Assembly: GCA_038882715.1 (NCBI GenBank)
Contig: JAVZNR010000012.1
Coordinates: 1 to 47,505 of the forward strand
DNA from: Candidatus Bathyarchaeia archaeon
Lineage (GTDB): Archaea > Thermoproteota > Bathyarchaeia > Bathyarchaeales > DTEX01
Direction of reading: 5' to 3'
DNA length: 47,505 nucleotides
This document shows, in pieces, positions 27,854 to 32,600 of this stretch. The first letter of the stretch is position 1, and each line of letters starts with the position of its first letter. A program made the position numbers and the translations under genes. The notes beneath the pieces were generated by a model that saw only the letters and a list, made by a program, of their open reading frames with translations, had not been told where the DNA came from and did not search any database.

Positions 27854-27920
27854 GAAGACCACCTTAAATACTTCATTTCCTGAAACAGCTTATAAGCCTT
27901 TAAGCCTTCTGAACATGCCC

Positions 27921-27926
27921 AAAAAA
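27921..27926 (-). terminator. T6 run following the candidate RNA
   Basis: On the minus strand TTTTTT comes eight bases after the closing stem of domain A. This fits archaeal termination and supports minus-strand transcription. It lies 67 bases ahead of the glycoside hydrolase start, which has its own TATA-like GCTTATAAGC near 27888-27897. Confidence 0.45.
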
Positions 27927-28150
27927 TAATTATCGTGGGCGCTTTGTGTTCCACGCGACTAACACCCAGCCTCACAGACGAGCGGTCTTTCGCTCCCCTC
28001 AGCTGGGCTCTCTCACACGTGGAATCTTAGCGCCCACGCCCGCCGTGTCCCGCATCTGGGTAAACTCTCCCTCATTGAAGGGGCTTTACGCCCATCTCGG
28101 TTGAGTCCGTCTCTGCGGGCCCCGCGAAAAGGGTTCCGGCGGGATTAAGC
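27921..28150 (-). ncRNA. Candidate structured non-coding RNA, class unknown
   Basis: This GC-rich block sits in an otherwise empty 417-base gap between the glycoside hydrolase and the VIT-like gene. It has two large nested hairpin domains. Domain A: GTGGGCGCT (27935-27943) with AGCGCCCAC (28029-28037), TTCCACG (27949-27955) with CGTGGAA (28018-28024), CCCAGC (27965-27970) with GCTGGG (28002-28007), and GAGCG (27980-27984) with CGCTC (27991-27995). Domain B: CCCGCC (28039-28044) with GGCGGG (28138-28143), CCCGCA (28049-28054) with TGCGGG (28114-28119), and TGGGTAAA (28057-28064) with TTTA (28085-28088) and CCCA (28091-28094). The minus strand is favoured because TATA-like sequence lies upstream and T6 follows the last stem. 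RNase P, SRP and 5S RNA motifs were not found. Confidence 0.65.
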
Positions 28151-28162
28151 TCGTATCATCGC

Positions 28163-28180
28163 TAAATTTATCGTATATAG
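28163..28180 (-). promoter_or_regulatory. TATA-like sequences upstream of the candidate RNA
   Basis: Minus-strand CTATATA (28180-28174) and TAAATTTA (28170-28163) lie about 25 bases ahead of the start of the paired region, as expected for an archaeal promoter reading the minus strand. Either could be the box. Confidence 0.45.
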
Positions 28181-28279
28181 AAAATGTAAATAAACTTTAC
28201 TTTAACCCAGCCCACCATTTTACCTTAGCGTATAACGCTCAGTGTTATGTGAGCCCTCCTCTTCAAGCGCTTCGGAACT

Positions 28280-29272: not shown

Positions 29273-30967
29273 TTACTTAGTCTTTAACAGGCTCCATATT
29301 TTGCTAAGGTTTATCTCGAAGGCTGCGGCTGGGTTCTCTAAGCCCCAGTTCTGGAGCACTTGTGGGTTTATCTCACCTATAAAACCGGTCTCCTCCCCAT
29401 TCACAATTATTTTTCCAACGCGTCCATCGATAAAGCTTCCGTGGCTCGTCTCTTCTAAACTGTATTCAAGCCCCAGGTTATATAATAGTGCTTCAAGAAC
29501 CGATTTAATTTCGGAGAACCCGGCTTCAGAATCTATTGTCACGCACGCTAATTTCTCAACGTCTCTGGTCTTATTGGGCTGCTTTTCGTCATGTATAGCG
29601 CAGTAGCCAACCTCAAAGATCCTTTGCGGATACTCGACATGAGTATTGTGGCTTAAAAACTCCATTAAGCTTGGCAGCAGCCAGCTCCTTAAGCAGGTCA
29701 TTGACGAAACTTTTGGGTTTGCCACCTCAACCACCCTCTCACGTTGAATGTTCATTTTCTCAAATAGCACGGTTTGATTTGTTAAAGTGAATGTGAGAAC
29801 CTCCTGGTAACCTAAGCCAATCATCAATTCCCTAACTAGGTTACGAAGCTGAGTTTCACGCGAGAGCCCACCGACGGTCGATATTTGAGGCCACCTTGGC
29901 TTTATCCTGTTTAAGTCGTAGGCTGTAGCTATGTCTTCAACAACGTCTATTGGATGCATTATATCTGGGCGATAACACGGTATCTCAACAACAATCTCGG
30001 CGCCTTCTACCTCTGAAACCCCGTATCTAGATCTCTCCAAAAGATCTATTATCTCGTTGAGACTTAACGGAACCCCTATAACTTTCCTCACATAGTCAAT
30101 GTTTATATGCATCTTTTCCGTTTTGAGGTCTGGCGTTGTAACTTCTCCTAGATCTTCGTAGGGATAGCGTATTTTAGCTGAATATATTCTTCCGCCTCTA
30201 TCTGCTAGGGCTAAAATAATGTTTGTCAGAGTGTATAGAACTGTTCTGTATAATGTGCCAGTCACCTCCACAAGAACGTTCTTTGTCTCAACTGTAACTC
30301 TCCCAAGGTCATTTGAGTTGATTATGGGTGGGAAAGATAAAACCTTGCTCCTAGAGTCTATGAAGATCGGCCAAACATCGAACTGTTTAACTATATGCCC
30401 GTACTCTATTCCTTTAGGATGCTTCTCAAGTATCTCGGCTAACGTTAACTCCTCATCAAAACCCAGCGGAATGAACCTCGTTTCATCCGGTCTAGAAACA
30501 GTGTAGCGTAATGGAGGGGTAACCAGATCAAAATCGTATAGCCCTATTGATGTTCTACGCCTACCGCGGCCATAGGTTTGATCCATTTTATCTTGGAAGC
30601 GCATTACGTGGCGTATCGCCGCATCACTTAGCTTCACATTTTTAACGACCGCGCAAGCGATATATGGACGTATATTTTTTAAGCGTGGGTCAACGGCGAT
30701 CTCAACCCCCGATTCGCCAGCAACCTCGTAGCGTTTAAGGCCCTTCTCGATGTTAAGTATTCCTTTCAAGGCACGCGCTATCCCCTCCACGCCCCATATG
30801 TCGGCGCGATTACTATCCTTAACATCTATATGGATCTCTTTCTCGTCAGCATACTTCACTTCGCCTTTTATGAACGACAATATTTCATCCAAGTCTTCAG
30901 GACTTTGCGGCAGCCTCATTCCTAGAAGCGACTCCAGATCCTCACGTTCAACCTCGATTGTCGGCAT
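29273..30967 (-). CDS. pheT: Phenylalanine-tRNA ligase beta subunit
   Basis: A 564-residue archaeal/eukaryotic-type beta subunit, shorter than the bacterial form, which has an extra N-terminal tRNA-binding domain. Visible pieces are the N-terminal MPTIEVEREDLESLLG, the B3/B4 editing domain region with AVVKNVKLSD and QDKMDQTYGRGRRRTSIGLYD, the B5 domain (KMHINIDYVRKVIGVPLS), and the catalytic-like domain with VVEDIATAYDLNRI and FTLTNQTVLFEKM. It begins two bases after the pheS stop, with GGAGATGAT at the end of pheS as the ribosome-binding site, so both subunits are made together. The stop is at 29273. Confidence 0.95.
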   Translation of the reverse strand: MPTIEVEREDLESLLGMRLPQSPEDLDEILSFIKGEVKYADEKEIHIDVKDSNRADIWGVEGIARALKGILNIEKGLKRYEVAGESGVEIAVDPRLKNIRPYIACAVVKNVKLSDAAIRHVMRFQDKMDQTYGRGRRRTSIGLYDFDLVTPPLRYTVSRPDETRFIPLGFDEELTLAEILEKHPKGIEYGHIVKQFDVWPIFIDSRSKVLSFPPIINSNDLGRVTVETKNVLVEVTGTLYRTVLYTLTNIILALADRGGRIYSAKIRYPYEDLGEVTTPDLKTEKMHINIDYVRKVIGVPLSLNEIIDLLERSRYGVSEVEGAEIVVEIPCYRPDIMHPIDVVEDIATAYDLNRIKPRWPQISTVGGLSRETQLRNLVRELMIGLGYQEVLTFTLTNQTVLFEKMNIQRERVVEVANPKVSSMTCLRSWLLPSLMEFLSHNTHVEYPQRIFEVGYCAIHDEKQPNKTRDVEKLACVTIDSEAGFSEIKSVLEALLYNLGLEYSLEETSHGSFIDGRVGKIIVNGEETGFIGEINPQVLQNWGLENPAAAFEINLSKIWSLLKTK

Positions 30968-30969
30968 AC

Positions 30970-32514
30970 TTATATCATCTCCTTTCTTCTAAGCCAATCA
31001 AGGTTGTGAGTGAATAGATAGCGTATATCGTTTATTCCAGCCTTCATCATGAAGAGCCTATCTACGCCTAAACCCCAAGCTAAAACTGGGACATCTATGC
31101 CGAGCGGCAGCGTCACCTCTGGGCGAAAGATTCCGGAGCCGCCGAACTCCATCCAGCCATAACCCTCTTTATAGGCTGACAACTCAACGCTCGGCTCGGT
31201 GAACGGGAAGTAGTCCGGTCTGAACCTAACCTTATCTGCTCCAGCTATATCTATTGCGAAGCGTTCAAGTATCCCAAGCAGATCGCGTAACGTTAAATCT
31301 TCACCTACAACTATGCCTTCAACCTGATTAAACTCGCTTAAATGAGTTTTATCCATGAGCTCAGGCCTATAGCAGCGGGCTATAGCGAAATATTTTCCGG
31401 GTATCTCAAGATCCTCGCTTATAAGCGTCCTTACGCTTACTGCTGTCGTATGACTGCGCAAAATCAGTCTTGCAGCCATGAGAAGCGAGAACTTGTATCC
31501 CCAACCCTTTGAGCCAGTCTTCCACCCATTTTCATGCGCCTCTTTAACCCGCTCAAGAAACTTCATATAGGGGGTTAAGTCGCCATACTCAGGATCCTTA
31601 ACAAGATACATGTCGTGAATCTCTCTGGCCGGATGGTCTTGAGGCATATAGAGCCCATCACAATTAAAGAAGCTTATTTCAACAATCGGCCCATTCATCT
31701 CCTTAAATCCTAAAGCAACAAGCTTCTCTCGAACCTCATCTAGGAAACGCAGGTATGGATGCTTTTTTCCAGGCCAAACTCTGGGCGTAGGAGCCCTAAT
31801 ATCATATTTTAGGATCCTCTTTTCACGCCATTTACCAGTCACTATGATCTCCGGAGTTAGCTGCGTTATCTCCTCAACCACCTCGACTCCCCTTTCAAGC
31901 AGGCTCAACCCATCATTAGTTAACTCAACCTCTTTAATGGATCCCTCACTAACGTTGATTATCTTTCTACCCTTAAGGACCTTAAAAGCCTCTTTCAGGT
32001 TATCGTCTAGCTCTTCAAGGGTTAAAACTCCAGCCATGTTAAGCATCGCCAAAAGCTTTTCATCGGATCCGGTCTCCGGCTCCCTTAAAATCTTAAGCCT
32101 CCGCTCCCTAGATTCCATCTTCGCCCAGCCTTTGCGGATAAGCCAGCCCAACGCTATAGTTGCAGTCTCGTTGTCCATTGAAGCAGCCCTAAAAACATCG
32201 TCTATTGATGCTTCACCACCCATTTTCATCAGTATCTCAGCTAACCGTCTCTCCGGCAACTTATCTTCAGCGTATTTCTTCCCCTCATCGTTAAGTGAAA
32301 AACGTGTCACCTTTTTCTCATTCATCTTCACAAGCTTTTTATCCTCAAGCGATAAAGCCGCCCGTATAACAGCCGCATGTGCGAGACCGGTCGCTTCAAC
32401 AATCTTCTCAATAGTAGCTCTCCCGCCAAAATTCTTTAATGCCATGAGGACTCTTCTCTCATTTTCACGCAGATCCACTGATCTCACCTTTTCCCTCTGC
32501 TTCCTTAAAGCCAT
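30970..32514 (-). CDS. pheS: Phenylalanine-tRNA ligase alpha subunit
   Basis: A 514-residue catalytic subunit. The N-terminal 220 residues are tandem winged-helix domains (for example ALKNFGGRATIEKIVEATGL) that bind tRNA in archaeal and eukaryotic enzymes. The catalytic core has motif 2-like ARCYRPE, RFRPDYFPFTEPSVEL and the ATP-binding motif 3 LAWGLGVDRLFM. ATG 32514 is chosen over a TTG one codon upstream. It is followed directly by pheT. Together they form a two-gene operon between fen1 and the VIT-like gene. Confidence 0.95.
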   Translation of the reverse strand: MALRKQREKVRSVDLRENERRVLMALKNFGGRATIEKIVEATGLAHAAVIRAALSLEDKKLVKMNEKKVTRFSLNDEGKKYAEDKLPERRLAEILMKMGGEASIDDVFRAASMDNETATIALGWLIRKGWAKMESRERRLKILREPETGSDEKLLAMLNMAGVLTLEELDDNLKEAFKVLKGRKIINVSEGSIKEVELTNDGLSLLERGVEVVEEITQLTPEIIVTGKWREKRILKYDIRAPTPRVWPGKKHPYLRFLDEVREKLVALGFKEMNGPIVEISFFNCDGLYMPQDHPAREIHDMYLVKDPEYGDLTPYMKFLERVKEAHENGWKTGSKGWGYKFSLLMAARLILRSHTTAVSVRTLISEDLEIPGKYFAIARCYRPELMDKTHLSEFNQVEGIVVGEDLTLRDLLGILERFAIDIAGADKVRFRPDYFPFTEPSVELSAYKEGYGWMEFGGSGIFRPEVTLPLGIDVPVLAWGLGVDRLFMMKAGINDIRYLFTHNLDWLRRKEMI

Positions 32515-32600
32515 CAACTCATATATTTTTCGCTAGGATTCAAATAAGCAATTTCTGGTTTAGGCTCCTTTTAGCCTTTTTCACCCAAGTTATACTAATG

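Follow-up and report, generated by a model that had tools for sequence, protein, structure and literature searches.

A GC-rich intergenic locus of Bathyarchaeia very probably encodes a two-hairpin box H/ACA guide RNA with candidate targets in two functional regions of 23S rRNA

The window that we analyzed (the whole stretch of 47,505 nucleotides from a Candidatus Bathyarchaeia archaeon) contains, between two long ORFs, a gap at 27863-28279 in which there is no long ORF, and the question is what this gap encodes. The original prediction, made from the letters alone, was an unassigned stable RNA of two domains of nested stems, GC-rich against AT-rich flanks, with a TATA-like sequence on one side and a run of six T on the other. 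All these structural and compositional features are borne out: the G+C content is 0.60-0.64 over 27950-28149 vs 0.34-0.39 just outside, and a GC-rich element with two structured domains occupies the minus strand at about 28163..27930, with the TATA-like box ahead of it and T6 (27926-27921, minus strand) after the 3' end of the RNA. The predicted minus-strand fold has a free energy of -106.8 kcal/mol (z = -5.2), with none of 200 shuffled sequences folding as well; the plus-strand fold is weaker (z = -4.1).

Conservation of this fold is apparent from an alignment of 44 sequences (hereafter A1), which was scored against a structure of 52 base pairs in 9 helices. In this alignment, 91.3% of the cells are paired and 34 pairs have changed on both sides, and RNAalifold alone recovers 36 pairs, 23 of them with both sides changed; the compensatory changes that the original prediction proposed to look for in relatives are thus present. 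The covariation score is 0.342, compared to 0.195 for shuffled alignments (0 of 500 shuffles scored as high), and is at most 0.081 when the partners are slid. Every helix of both domains covaries, including the outer helices 1 and 6 that close the two ANA boxes. Cells with G-U outnumber those with A-C (153 vs 59), which indicates that the RNA is the minus strand, a point that the original prediction had left open; the promoter-like box, which sits on that side, points to the same strand.

In most relatives, a box resembling RAAA-nn-TTTATnT is located at a nearly fixed distance, -30 to -33, from the GCGATGA of the 5' leader. The leader is kept as GCGATGAnnnnGA in most Bathyarchaeia and is missing from some families; in three loci that lack it (L010, L012 and L015), the promoter-like box shifts along with the RNA start. 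It can also be observed that the leader GCGAUGAnnnnGAGC recalls box C (RUGAUGA) and that, a few bases past the RNA end, a motif (AA)CTTTTAAGT(T) is conserved in two families (L030-L034, L036, L039, L040, L042, L043, L045 and L046) and may be a promoter for the gene that follows. The inverted repeats in an intergenic gap could also be read as a feature acting at the DNA level, without any RNA function, such as a terminator, the ends of a mobile element or regulatory inverted repeats. The element, however, is single-copy and shows compensatory changes, a G-U bias on one strand only, a promoter at fixed spacing and invariant unpaired loops, so that we give this reading practically no credence.

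A blastn search against 100 relatives places the element in 49 of the 101 genomes, usually once. A covariance model built from the 3' domain (R1; domain A below) reaches much further, matching 174 of the 189 Bathyarchaeia genomes (116 of the 120 best ones) and 84 of the 87 genera, as well as additional families of Thermoproteota with E-values down to 2e-11. The suggestion that this might be a new lineage-specific RNA does not stand, given that the element occurs well beyond one lineage, its 3' hairpin also in other Thermoproteota. Among 30 pattern matches with named hosts, 28 come from Candidatus Bathyarchaeota; the two non-archaeal ones (Mycobacterium and Omnitrophota) were taken as chance matches. 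Four genomes (G014, G050, G070 and G164; loci L018/L050, L040/L042 and L178) carry two copies of the RNA, the second of which has diverged in G070. The literature that we searched, which takes in a minority of the subscription papers, contains no account of such an RNA in Bathyarchaeia.

The gene neighborhood is conserved as well. In most relatives, and at many distant Thermoproteota loci, the C-terminus of PheT is encoded a short way upstream of the RNA, so the position downstream of pheT is common to Bathyarchaeia and other Thermoproteota. In the window, a gene for a VIT1-like membrane protein lies between pheT and the RNA, an arrangement shared only by L005 among the loci examined; the gene for the protein with the Glyco_hydro_106 match also adjoins the RNA in L003, L005 and L006. 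The features of the locus are collected in Table 1.

Table 1. Features of the RNA locus and its neighbors (positions are those of the window; all on the minus strand)
Feature	Coordinates	Strand	Sequence	Remarks
pheT and pheS	29273..32517	-		Upstream, same strand as the RNA; Pfam; syntenic anchor
VIT1-like membrane protein, 279 aa	28280-29119	-		Winged-helix-like part; between pheT and the RNA; Pfam
BRE/TATA-like promoter element	28188..28198	-	AAAGTTTATTT	Precedes the RNA start by about 25-35 nt
5' leader	28145..28163	-	GCGAUGAUACGAGC (also given as GCGAUGAnnnnGAGC)	Predicted transcript start near 28163
Domain B	28039..28143	-		First (5') hairpin, putative H/ACA, within the closing stem; all five helices (1-5) covary
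Domain B, closing stem	28143-28137 / 28045-28039	-	CCCGCCG / CGGCGGG	
Domain B, P1	28114..28119 / 28054-28049	-	CCCGCA / UGCGGG	6/6 pairs changed on both sides
Domain B, 5' guide	28107..28111	-	GACGG	Nearly invariant (44 sequences)
Domain B, P2, kink-turn and apical stem	28065..28105	-	CYC-AA-CC-GA / NNU-GA-GGGAGRG	
Domain B, 3' guide	28056..28061	-	ACCCAG	ACCCA invariant, 44/44
Domain B, ANA box	28046..28048	-	ACA	Directly after P1; ACA in 44/44
Domain A	27930..28038	-		Second (3') hairpin, putative H/ACA, with outer stem; 3' tail AUAA
Domain A, outer stem	28038-28030 / 27942-27934	-	CGUGGGCGC / GCGCCCACG	Helix 6; covaries, e.g. U-A 22 / C-G 19
Domain A, P1	28016..28023 / 27957-27950	-	UCCACGUG / CGCGUGGA	Helix 7; 8 bp
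Domain A, 5' guide	28008..28015	-	UGAGAGAG	Possible G.U pair at the last G, closing P2
Domain A, P2, kink-turn and apical hairpin	27965..28007	-		P2 = 28007-28001 / 27971-27965
Domain A, kink-turn	28000-27999; 27976-27972	-	GA; UGU-GA	UGA invariant
Domain A, 3' guide	27958..27964	-	UGUUAGU	
Domain A, ANA box	27947..27949	-	ACA	Directly after P1, inside the internal loop
Protein with Glyco_hydro_106 (alpha-L-rhamnosidase) match, 1010 aa	24830-27862	-		Pfam

As to the identity of the RNA, a search of both strands of the gap against Rfam, one of the checks originally proposed, yields no match even at an E-value of 5. The claim of a stable RNA distinct from RNase P RNA and SRP RNA holds: neither is matched here, and genuine copies of both are present elsewhere in the same genome. 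No tRNA and no phage DNA was found. Both domains, nevertheless, have the general plan of archaeal box H/ACA RNAs, namely a lower stem, an internal-loop pocket and an upper stem, with an ANA box that immediately follows the lower stem. The published rules call for 14-16 nt from the top of the pocket to the ANA box, a lower stem of 7-9 bp and a GA stem of 8-11 bp, which is 10 bp in productive folds (PMC4652768). With single exceptions, the spacing in both domains falls within this range. In domain A, the box lies 15-16 nt (17 in one sequence) from the C-G pair closing P2, or 14 nt in this sequence if a G.U pair closes it; P2 has 7 bp (8 with G.U), the GA stem 9 (10 with the closing G.U) and the lower stem 8. 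In domain B, ACA lies 16 nt (15 in one sequence) from the closing pair of P2; the stem lengths are marginal, with a GA stem of 9-10 bp that includes two non-canonical pairs and a lower stem of 6-7 bp. The domain A box is ACA, AAA, AGA or AUA in most relatives (exceptions include L027, L033 and L039), that is, it varies at the middle base, where the ANA rule allows change. In domain A, 5 of the 7 pairs of P2 covary; in domain B, which additionally carries a small variable side hairpin, both P2 and the apical stem covary and the UGA of the bulged strand is nearly invariant. Both domains contain a predicted kink-turn with tandem G.A pairs, a 3-nt NNU bulge and GA opposite GA/AG, so that the proposed fit to L7Ae is borne out, at the level of sequence.

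Taken together, these observations make it very likely that the RNA is a two-hairpin archaeal box H/ACA guide, and the label "unassigned" can be dropped inasmuch as both domains conform to the H/ACA rules and domain A is linked to HgcG/Pab40 (see below). One aspect of the architecture is unusual. An ANA box is normally located at the free 3' end or between hairpins. Here, both boxes lie in an internal loop or junction that an additional covarying helix encloses: past the functional ACA come the 3' strand of the outer stem and then GAYAA, and the outer helix around domain A is also present in distant Thermoproteota. The enclosing helices may serve as a processing stem or protect the ends, and ANA boxes in internal loops closed by further helices may represent a form of H/ACA RNA new to the literature that we consulted. 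These uncommon helices, along with the lack of an Rfam match, could be taken to indicate a novel structured-RNA class that has nothing to do with H/ACA; we regard such a class as very improbable, considering that two separate domains each comply with the kink-turn, ANA-box and spacing rules and that domain A is connected to HgcG. We also weighed, and rejected, the possibility that the pocket of domain A is its outer internal loop, the 5' side of which is variable in both sequence and length.

Under the H/ACA reading, the stand-alone minus-strand gene would be transcribed from its own archaeal promoter into a two-hairpin box H/ACA sRNA, each hairpin of which would be held by L7Ae at the kink-turn and by Cbf5 at the ANA box; the pocket strands would pair with 23S rRNA to either side of a single uridine, and Cbf5 would convert this uridine to pseudouridine. 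Cbf5 was detected above the cut-off in 32 of 41 relatives, including members of the same genus; this assembly yielded no full Cbf5 gene. In many genomes (G003-G007, G023, G024, G026, G033, G036, G038, G045, G055 and G057), cbf5 is in two pieces, with a break near model position 70 and a short stretch between them; this break resembles the known intron of the crenarchaeal cbf5 pre-mRNA and appears to be common in Bathyarchaeia.

To predict the targets, we searched 23S and 16S rRNA under a strict geometry (2 unpaired target bases and both arms of at least 4 bp). As no 23S gene was detected in the assembly itself, the sequence of a congener was used; the E. coli numbers were set by hand from conserved sequences. 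For pocket A, the strict geometry leaves a single site among 730-836 uridines, U1921, in each of 8 Bathyarchaeia species. At this site, CUGAC-UC-UCUC, GUUAG pairs with CUGAC (1916-1920) and GAGA with UCUC (1923-1926), with U1921 in the pocket. The pairing holds across the phylum, an rRNA CUAAC being matched by a guide GUUGG, and the (G)AGAG of the 5' guide is kept in nearly all distant relatives. In tests with shuffled guides, complementarity alone is weak (P 0.02-0.16), and shuffled guides find some site of strict-geometry strength with P 0.01-0.21; we therefore place the weight on the recurrence of the same unique site in all species and on its location in the helix targeted by the homologous guide. 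On this basis, domain A probably modifies U1921 at the base of helix 69. In the congener G010 (L062; TTCCAGCAAGTTCCCCCTTGCTGGAGGGAA) and in G003 (L068), the 23S gene carries an insertion of about 30 bases just 3' of the predicted helix-69 target; this insertion resembles an rRNA intron, so that interference between splicing and guiding is conceivable.

The site of HgcG/Pab40 hairpin 3, U1915, is six bases away, and a guide of the H/ACA type could instead direct modification of this uridine with extra unpaired bases. GUUA also pairs with UAAC (1911-1914), UGAGAGAG pairs with CUCUCUCA (1920-1927) over 8 bases, and published Haloferax models allow a third unpaired residue. U1915, however, fits pocket A only if five target bases are left unpaired, the fifth base of the 3' guide, G, is mismatched there and paired for U1921, and the 5' arm adjoining P2 fits only U1921 in the strict geometry. 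We hence consider U1915 an unlikely target and retain U1921 as the preferred one.

For pocket B, the best match in most species is CUGGGU-UUAGA-CCGUC (E. coli 2579-2594), where GACGG pairs with CCGUC (2590-2594) and ACCCAG with CUGGGU (2579-2584). The target region is identical in all 23S sequences where it was found, and the nearly invariant bases of the pocket are the paired ones, the variable bases being unpaired, among them the three that precede ACCCA in the 44 sequences. This target leaves five bases unpaired vs the canonical two, and other sites also fit the strict geometry. It is accordingly with some reserve that we name U2585/U2586 in the peptidyl-transferase center as the site on which domain B might act. 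Several other candidates were rejected. U1955 of 23S rRNA (UUUACCC / GGGUAAG) was dropped because the UUU is variable and the near-invariant ACCCA and GACGG are not fully explained; the remaining strict-geometry sites in 16S and 23S rRNA either have a guide that ends inside P2 or are not present in all species, and the good fit of pocket B to the 23S site CCUGGGGAGUGCCGU is confined to a few species.

The long complementarity to two functional regions of 23S rRNA, together with high conservation outside the guides and the extra helices around the ANA boxes, could also point to an H/ACA-type RNP whose main role is not that of a modification guide but that of a chaperone or assembly factor for helix 69 and the peptidyl-transferase center. 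All features required for pseudouridylation are nonetheless kept, at constant spacing, and to our knowledge only a few H/ACA RNAs, all of them eukaryotic, have such roles; a chaperone function accordingly appears quite improbable, and a guide function is the reading that we adopt. If correct, it supplies a function for an RNA gene that nearly all genomes of the uncultured class Bathyarchaeia possess and that the present Rfam models miss, and it yields testable predictions of pseudouridines in helix 69 and the peptidyl-transferase center.

Comparison with known systems connects domain A, in particular, to HgcG (Pab40, Pf7; RF00064), an H/ACA sRNA of Thermococcales. Hairpin 3 of HgcG (Pab40.3) acts on helix 69 (PMC2584109, PMC4652768); its target is position 2016 of P. 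abyssi, equated with H. marismortui 1956, and from the correspondence of G1950 to E. coli 1909, this target is E. coli 1915. Of 20 distant R1 matches that were searched against Rfam, 10 matched HgcG over the same hairpin, with best E-values of 3.7e-11 and 1.2e-10, although the best loci score 49.3 bits vs the HgcG gathering cut-off of 77. Given that these matches cover the same hairpin, domain A and HgcG hairpin 3 are most likely homologs that have diverged, to judge from profile matches that are chained and not direct. The two share the pocket layout with GUGUUA, the UGA kink-turn and, as predicted for domain A, the target helix 69. In contrast to HgcG, the Bathyarchaeal RNA itself gives no match, its relatives scoring below the gathering cut-off, and has only two guide hairpins, where HgcG has three hairpins, along with a small side stem that is variable; its ANA boxes are enclosed by outer stems; and in domain A the last base of the 3' guide is G, not C, and the 5' guide is different, and it is for the latter two reasons that U1921 rather than U1915 is predicted. 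As a tentative evolutionary scenario, in which we have less confidence than in either target, an ancient helix-69 guide might have been retargeted in Thermoproteota by six bases, from U1915 to U1921, via the UAAC/UGAC near-repeat within helix 69, with the ANA boxes moved into closed internal loops. The HgcG model of Rfam covers just a part of a far broader family of guides with a stable location beside pheT.

The haloarchaeal HP1+HP2 guides (Hvo1/Hvo2) likewise have two hairpins, which have been assigned to the same target regions in the same order, those of H. marismortui having been assigned Psi2621 (E. coli 2586) and Psi1956/1958 (E. coli 1915/1917). The haloarchaeal hairpins, however, are separated by a long spacer, whereas those described here are adjacent, and the guide registers differ; the likeness drawn here is one of target regions and hairpin order. 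Afu4.3 of Archaeoglobus and a Methanocaldococcus motif have been described as helix-69 guides related to Pab40.3, and it is by this description that they are likened to domain A. Finally, the Pyrobaculum H/ACA-like RNAs sR201-sR210 are also pseudouridine guides of Thermoproteota with kink-turns; sR203-sR210 are devoid of the lower stem, whereas the RNA described here has this stem in full and in an extended form.
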